From Desulfobacca acetoxidans DSM 11109 (GTDB lineage Bacteria; Desulfobacterota; Desulfobaccia; Desulfobaccales; Desulfobaccaceae), in contig NC_015388.1 of the NCBI RefSeq assembly GCF_000195295.1, positions 2,046,001 through 2,110,000 of the forward strand: DNA of 64,000 nucleotides. The letters run 5' to 3'. The translations under genes and the position numbers were made by a program. This document shows positions 23,351 to 32,196 of the stretch, piece by piece (the first letter of the stretch is position 1; every line of letters starts with the position of its first letter). The notes under the pieces are model-generated. The model had not been told where the DNA came from, did not search any database, and was given only the letters and a program-made list of their open reading frames with translations.

Positions 23351-24199
23351 TCACGTTGCCGCCTGTCGGAGGACAAAAGACCGGAGCGGGACGTTCAAGG
23401 CGGTGGCCACCGGATGACATTTGGCCTGCAGGAGAAAAAAAAGGCGAGGGTCATGGTAGTGCGCCAGGGTTTCGAAGTGACCCATGCCTTTGACCAAAAT
23501 GAGGTCAGCGGCGGCAAAGCTTTGTTGGAAAGCAGCGCTTGTCTCGTTCAGGACTAGACCCACGGTCAGAGCGCCGGTATCCACGATCGGCTCGAGGGCT
23601 GGACCCAGCCCGGAATCGAAGAGGTCCCGGCGGGTAAGGTCATTTTGGATGGGCCCGCCTTTAACCACGTAATGAACCTCCCAGCCGTCGAATCGGAGGA
23701 GCTCTACGAGGGGTAGATCAAAGAATTGCTCACCGGCATTGTCGGTGAGGAAGAGGAGCAGTCCGGACGGACCCTGGAGACGCTGCTGCAAAAGATCGAC
23801 CTGCGAGTCGGTAAAATGCACCGCGGAACGCATATCATTGGCGATTTCTGCCGAGCCGCGGAAAAAGTCCAAGGCGTTGCCAGCCGCCGCCAGGGCCAAC
23901 CGGGAGGTCAGATCGACCCCCCAGCGGGGGACTACTTCCGCCGCTACCTGGCGGGCGAGTTCGGTTTCGGCAATTTTCCGGCGCAGAAAAGGATCAGGAT
24001 TACCGGTAATGGTTTTGATGGCTTGATGAAAGATATTGGCAATATAGGCCGGAATAGCGCTGGGGGAAAATTCCGCCGCCAGAATTTCCCGAGCCTGGCG
24101 CCGGGCTTCGGCCTGTAAGTGCTGGTCTTCAGTAGCCAATTCTACACTCAGGTCTATCAGTTTTTCCAGGCAGGAATAACATTCAGGGCGAATGAGCAT
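23351..24199 (-). CDS. DUF89 metal-dependent phosphatase-like protein
   Basis: 282-residue protein of the DUF89/ARMT1-like family, whose studied members are metal-dependent phosphatases acting on damaged or side-product phosphometabolites. The N-terminal PECYSCLEKL has the CxxC pair of the prokaryotic subfamily. FLTDNAGEQFFDLPL carries the metal-binding Asp-Asn and Glu, and LILVKGMGHFE is the second conserved block. CAGGAG lies nine bases before the ATG. It is monocistronic; the substrate is unknown. Confidence 0.8.
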   Translation of the reverse strand: MLIRPECYSCLEKLIDLSVELATEDQHLQAEARRQAREILAAEFSPSAIPAYIANIFHQAIKTITGNPDPFLRRKIAETELARQVAAEVVPRWGVDLTSRLALAAAGNALDFFRGSAEIANDMRSAVHFTDSQVDLLQQRLQGPSGLLLFLTDNAGEQFFDLPLVELLRFDGWEVHYVVKGGPIQNDLTRRDLFDSGLGPALEPIVDTGALTVGLVLNETSAAFQQSFAAADLILVKGMGHFETLAHYHDPRLFFLLQAKCHPVATALNVPLRSFVLRQAAT

Positions 24200-26879: not shown

Positions 26880-27248
26880 ATGACTGAACCCATAACCGCG
26901 TCCGAAAAACAGAAACGAGAACAACTGCTGCCGCTGGTGGTGGAAATCCTGCCCGGTCAGGCCGGAGAAGGTCTTCTGGAGGTCTTTGAGCCCGGCAGCT
27001 ACGAGGGTAAAACCTTAGAACAGTTATGCCGACAAATGCTGGCCCGTTCGGATTGGAGCATAGAGGAACGGCAAATCCTGGATGATATCCAGCGCCAGCT
27101 TCAAGGTGGCAGACTCTTGGCCAAGGGTCGGGACCTTGAGTCCAAGGCCATTGATTACGCCCGTCTGGAGCAATCGGAGGAGGGTGAAGATTATTTCTAT
27201 GCCCCGGTGCGGGCTATCAGACCCCAAGAGGGCGGCATCTACCTCTAA
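26880..27248 (+). CDS. Ubiquitin-like modifier precursor (predicted)
   Basis: 122-residue protein. Residues 78-93 (GRLLAKGRDLESK and AIDY) align by eye with ubiquitin residues 42-59 (RLIFAGKQLED, TLSDY): Arg-Leu, the Gly two residues after Ala, Leu-Glu and Asp-Tyr all correspond, with a two-residue gap. The end, YFYAPVRAIRPQEGG, resembles the last ubiquitin strand and tail. Gly118-Gly119 is followed by Ile-Tyr-Leu, so a peptidase would have to expose the di-glycine; a JAMM enzyme is encoded four genes downstream. The first 55 residues (LVVEILPGQ, then GLLEVFEPG and a helix) are compatible with the first beta-grasp hairpin and helix. Role as a conjugated modifier is inference from this and from the E1/E2-like neighbours. 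Confidence 0.7.
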   Translation: MTEPITASEKQKREQLLPLVVEILPGQAGEGLLEVFEPGSYEGKTLEQLCRQMLARSDWSIEERQILDDIQRQLQGGRLLAKGRDLESKAIDYARLEQSEEGEDYFYAPVRAIRPQEGGIYL

Positions 27249-27267
27249 GGTCTTAGCGAAGGACAAT

Positions 27268-28431
27268 ATGTGGCCGATGTTGGCTTCGGGGGCGGAGGTA
27301 TACCTCCGCTCAGGCTATCTCTATGCACCGCTGCTGTTTGATCCGGAGATCGAGCAGGAAATTTCGACTATGACCGCGGCCAAGACCCGAGAATTAATTT
27401 CAGGGGAATGTCTGCTGTCAGTCGACGGCGGCTATTTTGTCAAGACCATCTGCTTACCTTCATTAGTGGAGAACTATCCGGCGGTATTTCCGGAGGAGTA
27501 TGAGAAGCTGCGCCAACACCAACTCCAAGGGCTGCTTCCTGTGCGGCCGGATTATCGGCCGCCGCTGGACGCCAAGTTGGAGGTCATGCTTTTCGAGATC
27601 CTGCCGCATTTTCTCAGGAAGCGGCGTGAAATACGCTGTCAGAAAGCTGATTGGGGAACCGTTCTGGACCTGTTGGCCGCCAGGATTCCGTCTCGGAACA
27701 TCAATCCGACCCTCGTAAATAGGTTGCGGCTGACCGAAGCTTCCCTCAGGAAATGGCTTAATCGACTGGAGGGGTTGGTCAATCACCCCTGCCTGCCCCC
27801 CGAGGGTTTGCAGAGAGGCATTGCTCTGCAGCAATGGTTTCAAGCAGCCCTGCAGGCTCATATACTGACTGAGGAAGTTAACCGGTGGCATTCGACCTTG
27901 AAGGAATTGCAGCGGCTGCTAGCATTGCCGCAGCGGCTTCTGGCCGTCTTGCTCACCATTGCCAAACGGGGTGCACTGGAGGTTGACGGCTTCGGTTTCA
28001 CCCGTTTGAAGGATCCACGGGAATACCTGATTTATAAGCGTACGGGGGCTTATGCCCTGAAAGATTATTTCGGTCGACTCTATTTATTTCCTGATTGCCG
28101 AGTCGGCGTCTCTACCGCCGGATTAATATATCCGAGGGTTTTAGGTATGTATAAACACCCTTTGTTGCGCCGATACAGTTCTCAACAGCCTATCTGTCTT
28201 ACCGAATATAAGGCCGAGGGAGAATTCTCCGCCGCCGCCGTGATCAAGGCCTTGGAAGAGGGGATCAATGCCCTTTTTTATGGTTATAACCATCGCAAAC
28301 GCAACGGCTATAACAGCTTGGACAAATTTGCTTTGCATCACTCCATGGTAGATTTTGATGATCTGCGGATTCCGAAAGATCATCCGAGCCTCGTTGCTGG
28401 CGAAGTGGAAGTGAAAAATGACTTTTATTGA
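27268..28431 (+). CDS. E2-like ubiquitin-conjugating protein with large N-terminal region (predicted)
   Basis: 387-residue protein. The C-terminal part (about 255-345) reads like a divergent E2 fold: strands in GRLYLFPDCRVGV, then LIYPRVLGMYKHP, then QQPICLTEY with Cys310 at the place of the E2 catalytic cysteine, then EFSAAAVIKALEEGINALF in the position of the helix after the active site. The His-Pro about ten residues before the Cys resembles the HPN element. The N-terminal 240 residues are helical and unrecognised. AAGGA precedes the ATG at 27268, 19 bases after the modifier gene stop; a longer frame overlaps the modifier gene and is rejected. The E2 assignment is by eye and would be a distant prokaryotic E2 family. 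Confidence 0.6.
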   Translation: MWPMLASGAEVYLRSGYLYAPLLFDPEIEQEISTMTAAKTRELISGECLLSVDGGYFVKTICLPSLVENYPAVFPEEYEKLRQHQLQGLLPVRPDYRPPLDAKLEVMLFEILPHFLRKRREIRCQKADWGTVLDLLAARIPSRNINPTLVNRLRLTEASLRKWLNRLEGLVNHPCLPPEGLQRGIALQQWFQAALQAHILTEEVNRWHSTLKELQRLLALPQRLLAVLLTIAKRGALEVDGFGFTRLKDPREYLIYKRTGAYALKDYFGRLYLFPDCRVGVSTAGLIYPRVLGMYKHPLLRRYSSQQPICLTEYKAEGEFSAAAVIKALEEGINALFYGYNHRKRNGYNSLDKFALHHSMVDFDDLRIPKDHPSLVAGEVEVKNDFY

Positions 28432-28440
28432 GGTTAAACT

Positions 28441-28857
28441 GTGACCGTCGGGCTTCTGGAGTCGATCAAGTCTGTCAGAATGCAGCAAAAGGCCAGATCG
28501 CCGCTGCCCCGATCGGTTTTTGCCCAGGTAGCAGCCATCGTTCAACAGTATGATCTGGATCGGGATTTTATTCAGCAGTTGAAGAAACCGGAATCGTTAG
28601 ATGTCGGGCTGCAGCCCAATGCTACCCCATCGGGGCGCTTGAGCCTCTTTCCCTTATTAACATGGAAGAAATATCAATTGACGCAAGAAATCATTACCCA
28701 CAGCGGTAATCCTTACCTGATGTATGTTCGATCACCCCGGGAAATCGGGCTCAGCCGAATTTTGTATCACCTCGATGCCTCTATTTCGGCGGAAACCTTC
28801 GATCGACAGACGGTGACCGAGCTCGTCGTCGCGAGATTAAGCGCCCGGAAGGAGTAG
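28441..28857 (+). CDS. Protein of unknown function in the ubiquitin-like cluster
   Basis: 138-residue protein starting at GTG 28441, nine bases after the E2-like gene, with GAGGT seven bases upstream. I do not recognise a family. The first 50 residues are basic and helical. The second half has strand-rich GRLSLFPLLTW and NPYLMYVRSPREIG, then a helix-rich end. There is no terminal Gly-Gly and there are no cysteines, so it is neither an obvious modifier nor a RING-type E3. Position suggests a substrate adaptor or a structural partner of the E2-like protein; this is inference. Confidence 0.7.
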   Translation: MTVGLLESIKSVRMQQKARSPLPRSVFAQVAAIVQQYDLDRDFIQQLKKPESLDVGLQPNATPSGRLSLFPLLTWKKYQLTQEIITHSGNPYLMYVRSPREIGLSRILYHLDASISAETFDRQTVTELVVARLSARKE

Positions 28858-28923
28858 GTCGTCTATAGGGTAAAGGGCGGGTGTTTCTTTTGATAAGAGT
28901 TTAGGCCGATACGGGTGAATGGC

Positions 28924-30027
28924 ATGTATGATCATATTTCGGAGCAGAGCCGGCGGCGGATTTTAGACAAGATGGAAATCATGCGCCAACAACAGTTGAA
29001 TGAGGCGGCGCAACAGATCATCGAATTTGCCAAAACGCCGGTGGAGTTGAAGGCCGACCTGGATCGGTTCATTGTCGGCCAGGAAAGGGGTAAGAAAACT
29101 ATGGCTACGGCCATTGCCTTCCACTACCGGCGCCTGGGACATGCTCTGAAAACGGCTCTGGCGGAAAACAGCAAAGACATCGAGCAGGCCCTGCGTCAAA
29201 CCCGGACCCCTAAGGCCAATATTGTGCTCATCGGTCCCACCGGTTGCGGCAAAACCTATACAGCAGAGGTTGCCTCCGGTCTTATCGGAGTTCCATTTGT
29301 GGTGGAAGATATGACCAAATTCAGCGAGACCGGCTATGTCGGCCAGAATACCGGTGACATCCTGATCGACCTCTTGGTTGCGGCTGGAGGCAATCCGCAG
29401 GTGGCTCAGATGGGAGTGGTCTATCTGGACGAGATCGATAAGATCGCCGGTGAAGCAATAGCCTATCGGGATGTCTCCGGCCGGGGAGTGCAGAAAGGTC
29501 TGCTGAAATTGATAGAAGGGGTGGAGAATACCGTAGATTTGGGTCGTGAACGCCTCAGCCTCTCCACCCGGCACGTCCTTTTTATTGCCGGAGGGGTCTT
29601 TGAAAAATTGGACGCCATTGTCCAGAAACGGATGGATCTGCACGGTTTCTCCGGGGATTGGCAGGATTACCTGCTTACCGAGGACCTGGTAGTCTTCGGG
29701 ATGGAACGCCAACTGATGGGGCGTTTCCCCGTGCGGGTAACCTATGATATGCTCACCACTCAGAATTTAATGGATATCCTCACGCAATGTGAGGAAAGCC
29801 CGCTGCAGGCCTACATTCACGATTTTAAAACCTGGGGGATCGAACTGGTCTTTACGGCTGAAGCCCTTAAAGCTATAGCCCTCAGGTCTCAGCAGGAACG
29901 CACCGGCGCCAGAGGTCTGATTAGTATACTCCACCGGGTGCTCAGTGAAGATCTGTTCCGTCGGCCAGGGAGCTACACCGGCCTCCTACAGGTGGATGAG
30001 GGCTATGTCCGCCGGAGGCTGCAGTGA
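28924..30027 (+). CDS. ClpX-like AAA+ unfoldase lacking the zinc domain and normal ClpP loop
   Basis: 367-residue AAA+ protein most like ClpX. Walker A GPTGCGKT (104-111), pore loop GYVG (137-140), Walker B VVYLDE (165-170), DVSGRGVQKGLLKLIEG (183-199), arginine in GRFPV (266-270) and sensor-2 GARGL (328-332) are all present, so ATP-driven threading is likely. Three ClpX parts are missing or altered: the N-terminal zinc-binding domain, the RKH loop, and the [LIV]-G-F ClpP-docking loop, here a short LHGFSGDW. It therefore probably works without ClpP, or with another partner. The ATG at 28924 is used; a GTG nine bases upstream is possible. Its stop overlaps the next start (GTGA). Confidence 0.88.
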   Translation: MYDHISEQSRRRILDKMEIMRQQQLNEAAQQIIEFAKTPVELKADLDRFIVGQERGKKTMATAIAFHYRRLGHALKTALAENSKDIEQALRQTRTPKANIVLIGPTGCGKTYTAEVASGLIGVPFVVEDMTKFSETGYVGQNTGDILIDLLVAAGGNPQVAQMGVVYLDEIDKIAGEAIAYRDVSGRGVQKGLLKLIEGVENTVDLGRERLSLSTRHVLFIAGGVFEKLDAIVQKRMDLHGFSGDWQDYLLTEDLVVFGMERQLMGRFPVRVTYDMLTTQNLMDILTQCEESPLQAYIHDFKTWGIELVFTAEALKAIALRSQQERTGARGLISILHRVLSEDLFRRPGSYTGLLQVDEGYVRRRLQ

Positions 30028-30824
30028 GAATCAAGAACCTGGCCTCCCTGAAGAAAGCGGCCAGCCGGGAGATCATCCTGGCTGAACTGCCCGAAACTAT
30101 TCGCCTGACGCACTTTGCCAACACCAAGGCCTTTAAAATCAATGAGCTGGTGCGCTCCATACATCAGCAGAGTTTTGAATGGTATGGCTTTACGTTGGCC
30201 CTCAGGGAGGCTCCAGAGCTGGTTATAGATCTCGGCCTGCCGGTAAATGAGCAGAACCGGGAGGAATACGTCAGCGTCGAAGCCGAAAAGATTGCCGCTT
30301 ACCGCGATTCCCTGCCGGACCATCTAATCATTAACGGCTGGATTCATTCTCATGGGGACCTGTCATATCGGCATTTTTCCCCCACCGACGCCACCAATCA
30401 GGCAGTGGTGCTGGATTACGTGACAGCGGGGCTGCGTCAGCCGGTGGCCAAGGTAGAGATCGCTATTCAAGATTTTGTCTTCTTGTGTCAGGGGTCCTAC
30501 CGGCCGGAGGATCTAAGAAGGGGCAGCGTCAGCCTGATTACTGATTCTCCTGTCACTCGGGCCAGCCTGTGGGAAACGGTCTACGGCGGCTTCTGTTACG
30601 CCATTGTCATCGGCGATGAGGGCTGGCATGAACAGGAAATTCATTACAAAAGACGGGGTATTCTGACCGGTCAAACCTCGGTCGGGAGTAAAAAGGACGC
30701 GGAGCTAGTACTCATCGATGATGGCCGCCTGCTGACCAACTCGGATATTGAGATGTTAGGAAGCGAGATCAGCAGCAAGCTTTCCCCGGTAACGTCGGTT
30801 CCTCCCAAGTTGGAAAGTATGTAG
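30024..30824 (+). CDS. JAMM/MPN metalloprotease, predicted deubiquitinase-like
   Basis: 266-residue protein with a JAB/MPN domain. Glu52 (FEWYGFTLA), His108 and His110 (GWIHSHG), Ser119 and Asp122 (FSPTD) supply the zinc-binding and catalytic set. The gap between the second His and the Ser is eight residues, one more than the usual JAMM spacing. Family members remove ubiquitin or process modifier precursors; here the likely job is to trim Ile-Tyr-Leu from the modifier and to reverse conjugation. It starts with GTG overlapping the ClpX-like stop by four bases. The region after residue 145 is not part of the core motif and is unrecognised. Confidence 0.82.
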   Translation: MRIKNLASLKKAASREIILAELPETIRLTHFANTKAFKINELVRSIHQQSFEWYGFTLALREAPELVIDLGLPVNEQNREEYVSVEAEKIAAYRDSLPDHLIINGWIHSHGDLSYRHFSPTDATNQAVVLDYVTAGLRQPVAKVEIAIQDFVFLCQGSYRPEDLRRGSVSLITDSPVTRASLWETVYGGFCYAIVIGDEGWHEQEIHYKRRGILTGQTSVGSKKDAELVLIDDGRLLTNSDIEMLGSEISSKLSPVTSVPPKLESM

Positions 30825-30936
30825 GTCCAGGCCTCAAAAGCTAGACATCATCGGCGAAAAGGCGGGATGCGTTTCACTTCTCCGTTCCACGGTTTTATCT
30901 TTGTACCAAGCATTTAGCGCTCAGGACTTAAAGCCA

Positions 30937-32196
30937 ATGACTCATCCCGCCCGCCTGGACCGACAGCTCCGTATTCCCCATTGGAACCAGGACTTACTGG
31001 CACGGGCTCAAATCGGCGTTGTGGGGGAAGGCGGCCTTCTCACCTCCTTGTATCTCCTGTCCGCCATGGCATTAGGCATTAATCATCTCCGGGTGGTAGC
31101 CCCCCGACTGGATGAACGTCTGCTTTCACTCGGACAAAGGCTGAACCCGGATTGCCGACTTAGCTTTTTTCAGGGTTATTATACGCATCCGGTCTGCCGG
31201 GAGATATTTCTTGCCTGCCCTCTGATAATCGACCTCAGCGGCTACTCCCTGGCTGGCAAGATTCTCTTGGAACAGGCCTTCCATGAAGGATTGCCAGTAG
31301 TGCGGGGGGGTGTCTGGCAAGAGGCTCGGAACCAAGGTTTTCGGATCTTCACCTACTTATCGGGCCGCGAATGGCAGGAACTACAGCAGGTTTTGACAAC
31401 ACGGAATCTACCCCAAAACGCAAATTCTGAGGATGGGGTGCTGGAGATCATTGCCGCCGGGCTTATCCTAGAAGAAACCAAGAATATTCTTATGCAAAAC
31501 CCTGTTTCCCCGGCACTGATTACCTATCAGGGTCTACGGCCAACGGTTTTAGCAAGCAGCCCGCGTATCTTAATCGCGGGGGCGGGGGCTTTGGGCAATT
31601 TTGTCGGCCTGGGGCTGGCTTTGACCGGTTTTAGTCAAATAACCTTTATGGATCCGGATGTCATCGAGGTGACTAATCTCAACCGTCAGGTCTGTTTTGC
31701 GGATGCCGTAGGTGCCAGTAAGGCTGAAGTGCTGGCGGCTCGGCTCAACAGCAGGTTTCACACCTCCGCCCATGCGGTGGTTGATTATTTCCGGGAGGGG
31801 ACTGATATTTCCGGTTATGACGTGGTTTTTGATTGTGTCGACAATTTTGCCAGCCGTATTGCCCTGAGCGAAGCCTGCGCCGGGGCCGGTACGATTCTGG
31901 TGAGCGGCGGGACCGGCATTGATGGAGGACAGGTAGTGGTATTTCATCCAAACCTGCAACCTCAGACCCCGGCGGCGGTATTGGGATTTTATGATATTGC
32001 GGCCAGTGACCGCTCCCAGGGCTATCAACGCGAGCGAGCCGCCTGTATCTACCGGCCAGATCCGTCGGTAATCATGAGCAACCAGATTATCGGTGGTTTT
32101 ATGGTAGAGGCCGGACGGAAGGCCTTGGCCGGTGAAGTGGCGCCACCCTTATTTTACCAGGCCGAAGCGGCTCAGCGGTTCACTTTTATGCAATGA
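30937..32196 (+). CDS. E1-like (ThiF/MoeB superfamily) activating enzyme with tandem adenylation domains
   Basis: 419-residue protein with two Rossmann units. The N-terminal unit (about 6-130) keeps the RLDRQLRI opening and GVVGEGGLL but has lost the acidic, Asn, Arg and Gln ATP residues. The C-terminal unit (about 205-400) is intact: GAGALG (215-220), MDPDVIEVTNLNRQ (Asp239, Asn249, Arg250, Gln251), Lys262 and DCVDN (299-303). Cys370 (RAACIYRPD) is the best candidate for the thioester cysteine. This resembles the inactive-plus-active pair of eukaryotic E1 enzymes, with the RxxRQ motif able to act as arginine finger. The ATG at 30937 is preferred; a TTG at 30901 lacks a ribosome site. Confidence 0.85.
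   Translation: MTHPARLDRQLRIPHWNQDLLARAQIGVVGEGGLLTSLYLLSAMALGINHLRVVAPRLDERLLSLGQRLNPDCRLSFFQGYYTHPVCREIFLACPLIIDLSGYSLAGKILLEQAFHEGLPVVRGGVWQEARNQGFRIFTYLSGREWQELQQVLTTRNLPQNANSEDGVLEIIAAGLILEETKNILMQNPVSPALITYQGLRPTVLASSPRILIAGAGALGNFVGLGLALTGFSQITFMDPDVIEVTNLNRQVCFADAVGASKAEVLAARLNSRFHTSAHAVVDYFREGTDISGYDVVFDCVDNFASRIALSEACAGAGTILVSGGTGIDGGQVVVFHPNLQPQTPAAVLGFYDIAASDRSQGYQRERAACIYRPDPSVIMSNQIIGGFMVEAGRKALAGEVAPPLFYQAEAAQRFTFMQ

Follow-up and report, generated by a model that had tools for sequence, protein, structure and literature searches.

A six-gene block in Desulfobacca acetoxidans

We analyzed a window of 64,000 nucleotides from Desulfobacca acetoxidans DSM 11109 (contig NC_015388.1, positions 2,046,001 to 2,110,000), whose genome is a single contig of 3.28 Mb. 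A first-pass annotation of this window had described six plus-strand genes with short gaps or overlaps, and all six open reading frames (ORFs) are borne out at 26880-32196 on the plus strand (Table 1). In order, they encode a candidate ubiquitin-like modifier, an E2-like protein, a conserved third protein, a ClpX-family AAA+ motor, a JAB/JAMM metallopeptidase, and an E1-like enzyme. The composition and conservation of this block, hereafter the cassette, suggest that it may well encode a reversible ubiquitin-like modification system with its own protein-remodeling motor, a reading that we consider moderately probable.

The successive intergenic gaps are 19, 9, 66, -4, and 112 nucleotides, the negative value reflecting the GTG start of the JAB gene, which overlaps the stop of the ClpX-like gene by 4 nucleotides. 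An alternative GTG start at 28915 is possible for the ClpX-like gene and would shorten the gap before it to 57 nucleotides. For the E1-like gene, the listed TTG at 30901 (gap of 76 nucleotides) precedes the conserved start, and the ATG at 30937 is most likely. Promoter and terminator scans returned matches at chance level only.

Table 1. Genes of the cassette and an upstream neighbor, with positions in the window (aa, amino acids)
Gene	Product	Length (aa)	Position	Strand	Likely start	Basis
1	Ubiquitin-like modifier candidate	122	26880-27248	+	ATG 26880	PQEGG motif, context
2	E2-like protein	387	27268-28431	+	ATG 27268	HP...Q-x-I-C motif, context
3	Unknown conserved protein	138	28441-28857	+	GTG 28441	Core LF.L ... 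NPYL, position before motor gene
4	ClpX-family AAA+ motor		28924-30027	+	ATG 28924	PRK05342, PDB ClpX matches
5	JAB/JAMM metallopeptidase	266	30024-30824	+	GTG 30024	EWYG ... GWIHSHGDLSYRHFSPTD, Prok-JAB matches
6	E1-like enzyme		30937-32196	+	ATG 30937	PF00899, PDB UBA1 matches
Upstream	ARMT1-like damage-control phosphatase family protein		23351-24199	opposite		PF01937

Conservation and co-occurrence of the six genes

We used the JAB protein to survey three samples: 148 relatives, 395 genomes across the phylum, and 56 genomes of one further class. It is present in 19, 20, and 24 of these, respectively, and in 44 different genomes of the same phylum in total; a scan of the whole collection returned one relative only. 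The order modifier, E2, third protein, motor, JAB, E1 is kept in 29 of the 44 JAB loci, and three more carry E1 at the front with the other five genes in their usual order (L146, L148, L149). The remaining loci are split or are interrupted by contig ends. Genes beside the cassette are common only to close relatives, and none is common across genera. The six-gene block is thus conserved beyond chance, with unrelated flanks, in 44 loci. Further, the E2-like and JAB profiles match the identical set of 20 of the 395 phylum-wide genomes, so the co-occurrence in other genomes on which the earlier proposal depended is indeed found.

Several genomes retain the set without strict linkage. In family f71, three genomes (loci L082-L084; genomes G232, G332, and G349) have the other five genes without E1 beside them, and an E1 homologue with E values of 1e-116 to 1e-135 lies elsewhere in the genome in a conserved neighborhood of its own. 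Similarly, the E2-like gene is on another contig in one genome (G010), and both the E2-like and modifier genes are on other contigs in a second (G018). That the genes occur together even where they are unlinked speaks for a functional set. One locus (L143, genome G418) has no recognizable E2-like or third-protein gene between modifier and motor, the search there being confined to this interval. In a tree of the cassette, in which deep supports are modest, neither family f1 nor family f91 is monophyletic, suggesting that the cassette was probably transferred as one unit.

A candidate modifier and its putative conjugating enzymes

The candidate modifier ends in RAIRPQEGG followed by IYL, with the glycine pair Gly118-Gly119 at 27231-27236. 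PQEGG is kept in all 38 distinct relatives, and what follows it is unconserved and ranges from nothing (five sequences) to about 150 residues (maximum 151). In three genomes of one genus (L030:3318-4136, L032, and L033), the Gly-Gly is followed by about nine residues and then by an in-frame GNAT acetyltransferase domain (PF00583; E values of 9e-19 and 7e-18 in the two of the three genomes that were scanned), an arrangement reminiscent of ubiquitin-ribosomal protein fusions. An invariant PQEGG with an unconserved tail, the GNAT fusion included, is the signature of a processed modifier precursor; judged by this tail pattern, the protein would look like a precursor trimmed after Gly-Gly. Neither Pfam, NCBIfam, and PADLOC models nor a PDB profile search gave a match. 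An AlphaFold2 model built from two sequences has the order bb-a-a-bb and a predicted local distance difference test (pLDDT) score of 70; SUMO, the ubiquitin-like (Ubl) domains of USP7 and TBK1, PB1, FERM, and other beta-grasp folds are near the top of its Foldseek list, with a best E value of 0.26. None of these hits is significant. We call the protein a candidate modifier from its motif and context, and the beta-grasp fold suggested by motif and weak model is putative.

The E2-like protein has a helical N-terminal region of about 230 amino acids followed by a C-terminal domain. The latter contains His297 (28156-28158) and the candidate catalytic cysteine Cys310 (28195-28197), which belong to an HP-x(8-10)-Q-x-I-C motif kept in all 37 relatives. 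A second invariant cysteine, Cys277, lies within a near-invariant FPDC(R)V (here FPDCRV). The His-Pro followed by cysteine resembles the active site of the ubiquitin-conjugating (UBC) fold, and the label "E2-like" refers to motif and context, the UBC fold itself being putative. No match was found in Pfam, NCBIfam, or PADLOC or in a PDB profile search, and Prok-E2_D (PF14460) had no match in 247 genomes, nor in controls, so that this negative is uninformative. At one locus (L059:5106-6206), a TAG ends the E2-like ORF some 20 residues short, either a truncation or an assembly error.

The identity of the last gene as a ThiF/E1 family member is certain by sequence. The C-terminal half of the protein matches PF00899 (ThiF) with an E value of 4.9e-34 and is a ThiF/UBA1-type adenylation domain with the motifs GAGALGN and NLNRQ; in the PDB the best chain is yeast UBA1 (E value of 2e-20), and the enzyme is closest to UBA1, Uba4, and MoeB. 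A candidate cysteine at 32044-32046 is invariant in sixteen aligned family members. The N-terminal half opens with RxDRQLxI...Q..L, as in E1s, and aligns along its whole length with the C-terminal half (P of 0.0023; probability 12.5%), as a degenerate Rossmann lobe should.

A JAB/JAMM peptidase and a conserved third protein

The motif HSHG...S..D is present in 43 of 44 relatives of the gene 5 product, and EWYG is also conserved. Prok-JAB is the top match in 8 of 19 JAB relatives (best E value of 0.0027) and is matched by a divergent member, L061, with an E value of 3e-4. Motif and matches together support the assignment to the JAB family.

In 39 of the 44 loci, the gene for the third protein lies immediately 5' of the one for the motor, and the relatives of this protein are 27-40% identical. 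Searches gave no PDB match and no usable match in Pfam, NCBIfam, or PADLOC; a hit to bL20 (E value of 0.04) was set aside, as it looks like a charged-helix artefact. An adaptor role is possible.

The four proteins without an adequate Pfam or NCBIfam model (modifier, E2-like, third protein, and JAB) are those that current annotation misses.

A ClpX-derived motor without the ClpP-docking loop

The product of gene 4 is certainly a ClpX-like, and by its sequence ClpX-derived, AAA+ protein, matching PRK05342 (E value of 3.6e-76) and PDB ClpX (E value of 3e-74). Its score of 225 bits is under the curated ClpX cut-off of 370.75 bits. It retains Walker A (GPTGCGKT), Walker B (VYLDEID), the pore loop GYVG, and GARGL. 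The zinc-binding N-terminal domain is missing, with CxxC...CxxC in none of the 44 motors. Compared with ClpX from the same genome, a 7-residue stretch containing the RKH loop is gone, and a further 13 residues, which include the MGF/IGF loop for docking to ClpP, are deleted in all eight family members aligned to it. At the docking-loop position, GF occurs in only 8 of 44 motors, as H-G-F in a short turn. The genome's canonical ClpX is encoded beside clpP at 507 kb and keeps the docking loop, and HslU is also encoded. ClpX biochemistry is well established; from it and the lost loops, we infer that the motor would unfold substrates without feeding ClpP.

The motor gene lies directly 5' of the JAB gene in 44 of 44 loci, 33 of them with an overlap of exactly 4 nucleotides, and no other gene pair of the operon is as tight. 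The motor and the JAMM enzyme would thus presumably work together.

The same genome encodes a further ClpX-like paralogue of 612 amino acids with a C-terminal extension of its own (G000:C1:15338-16393, L114), distinct from both the canonical ClpX and the operon motor.

Proposed pathway and alternative explanations

We infer the catalytic and physical steps of the proposed system from the sequences, motifs, conservation, co-occurrence, and loop losses described above. The JAMM peptidase would trim the modifier precursor after Gly-Gly, and the two-lobed E1 would then adenylate the Gly-Gly end and hand the modifier to a cysteine. Cys310 of the E2-like protein would receive it and attach it to target proteins, perhaps chosen via the helical N-terminal domain of the E2-like protein, the third protein, or both. 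The ClpX-derived ring would grip the modified proteins, or the complexes to which they belong, and unfold them or pull them apart, while the JAMM enzyme would remove and recycle the modifier. By analogy, such a pathway resembles Cdc48 or the Rpt ring with Rpn11 more than it does ClpXP. In its specific form, the proposal describes a protease-free AAA+ segregase on a ClpX chassis paired with a JAMM deconjugase, so that the tag would send proteins to be pulled apart and would not merely mark or block them; we give this form about an even chance.

Several points weigh against a modification system of this kind. The match between the two halves of E1 is weak. Neither the modifier model (pLDDT of 70) nor the E2-like model (pLDDT of 47, too poor for a fold search) has a Foldseek match at E<0.001, and neither protein significantly matches the corresponding PRTRC C and B profiles. 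The high correlation of pairwise distances among five of the proteins (r of 0.81-0.88), a point in favor of the system, is partly accounted for by shared ancestry. Recognition of the modifier by the motor is itself conjectural, and the motor might instead target the conjugating enzymes or some other partner. ClpP, too, could conceivably dock through a non-canonical surface.

The first-pass annotation had also suggested phage defense, in which the same conjugation chemistry would serve as in Bil or CBASS Cap2/Cap3 and the motor would dismantle phage structures or prime an effector. Known bacterial operons with E1, E2, and JAB frequently serve in defense (PMC10097602; PMC12687455), and the patchy distribution of the cassette and the splitting of f1 and f91 in its tree are as expected of cassette exchange. 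However, a plasmid search with the E2-like protein and searches of phages and of viral contigs returned zero relatives, most of the f1 and f63 family members sampled carry the cassette, and it includes no recognizable killer or sensor gene. Sampled flanks contain ordinary metabolic and transport genes (Prs, PFOR, FAD enzymes, MgtE, SIS-CBS, MalQ, and FlpD), with no defense-island or mobile-element context and no credible PADLOC match. With no mobile-element relatives and ordinary chromosomal flanks, defense is not favored; we regard it as unlikely, while granting it some weight. Quality control or remodeling of protein complexes is the likelier role.

The remaining alternatives are less probable still. 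A system that tags proteins for degradation, with the ring passing them to ClpP or another protease through a non-canonical contact, would fit the ClpX ancestry of the motor, its retained pore loop, and the ClpP and HslU encoded in the genome; its improbability stems from the docking loop, which the compared motors lack while the genome's own ClpX keeps it, from the scarcity of GF at this spot among the motors, and from a cassette that lacks a protease gene. It is about equally doubtful that the modifier and E2-like assignments are wrong and that the first two genes encode small proteins with no relation to the E1/JAB/AAA+ group next to them. Neither has a family, PDB, or fold match, as that explanation would have it, but the conserved block of the modifier always closes with PQEGG ahead of free tails, His-Pro...Cys is invariant, and the E2-like protein co-occurs perfectly with JAB. 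Finally, the Gly-Gly protein could be a sulfur carrier of the ThiS or MoaD kind, which JAB would mature and the ThiF-like enzyme would load. The ThiF/MoeB homology of the E1 and the known JAB, ThiS-like, and ThiF sets of sulfur metabolism (Iyer et al. 2006, PMC1779556) speak for such a cofactor system, which we nevertheless consider very improbable: no conserved sulfur-metabolism gene adjoins the block, carriers need neither an E2-like cysteine protein nor an AAA+ motor, and the degenerate-plus-active E1 resembles conjugating E1s and not MoeB/ThiF homodimers.

Reversible modification coupled to a remodeling motor is therefore the reading we retain. The conserved operon supports the first-pass proposal that modifier, E1, E2, and JAMM enzyme form a set with a ClpX-family motor of its own, and its Cdc48-like idea gains weight from the loss of the ClpP-docking loop, zinc domain, and RKH loop and from the inseparable motor and JAMM genes. 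With its suggestion of defense set aside, that earlier interpretation is, as a whole, partly supported.

Comparison with known systems

In the literature searched, we found no earlier description of this six-gene set and nothing relevant on ClpX together with JAMM/JAB and ubiquitin-like proteins; a description outside that literature may exist. Iyer et al. 2006 (PMC1779556) regarded links between bacterial ubiquitin-like proteins and ATP-dependent machines as "less clear," with only hints of them. The cassette places a link between a ubiquitin-like system and an ATP-driven machine in one conserved operon. Relative to known bacterial ubiquitin-like operons, the new feature is a dedicated, apparently ClpP-independent motor of the ClpX family. 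If the proposal is true, bacteria, too, couple a ubiquitin-type tag to a JAMM enzyme and a motor for unfolding, in a set of six reconstitutable proteins.

Among the operon types 6a-6e of Iyer et al. 2006 (PMC1779556), type 6d (PRTRC), which comprises a modifier, JAB, E1, E2, and a helical protein, is closest to the cassette in layout: modifier, E2, JAB, and E1 follow one another in both, and both have an additional helical protein. In profile comparisons, the cassette E1 matches PRTRC ThiF (P of 1e-18), and the JAB protein matches PRTRC A at HSHG only (P of 3e-4). A weak alignment of the E2-like protein with PRTRC B falls on the cysteine and is not significant (P of 0.10-0.33), and the third protein and the motor have no match to the PRTRC E and F profiles. 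The cassette differs in the extra N-terminal half of its E1 and in its ClpX-like motor. Further, PRTRC is usually plasmid-borne, in contrast to the absence of plasmid relatives of the E2-like protein, and is headed by a ParB-family gene; none was seen beside the cassette, although no ParB profile was run on the flanks.

Bil (BilABCD) and Bub, as far as the available descriptions go, also combine a modifier, E1, E2, and peptidase in one operon, and BilD is described as having two adenylation domains, one inactive and one active (PMC11354881), as in the cassette E1. The BilB motif is given there as CEHH, compared with HP...Q-x-I-C in the cassette E2-like protein, and these partial accounts mention no AAA+ motor; the cassette appears distinct from Bil and Bub by these descriptions. 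CBASS Cap2/Cap3 and 6A-MBL share homology in the E1 adenylation domain, but theirs is a fused E2-E1 serving a cGAS-like enzyme or an MBL, whereas the cassette has separate E1 and E2 proteins and its own modifier and motor.

The motor shares with ClpX of ClpXP the AAA+ core, pore loop, and Walker and sensor motifs but is without the zinc domain, RKH loop, and IGF loop. Cdc48/p97 and the proteasomal Rpt-Rpn11 pair belong to another AAA+ clade, so that the resemblance would be one of functional analogy: as in those systems, a ubiquitin-type tag, an AAA+ motor, and a JAMM isopeptidase (Rpn11) are found together.

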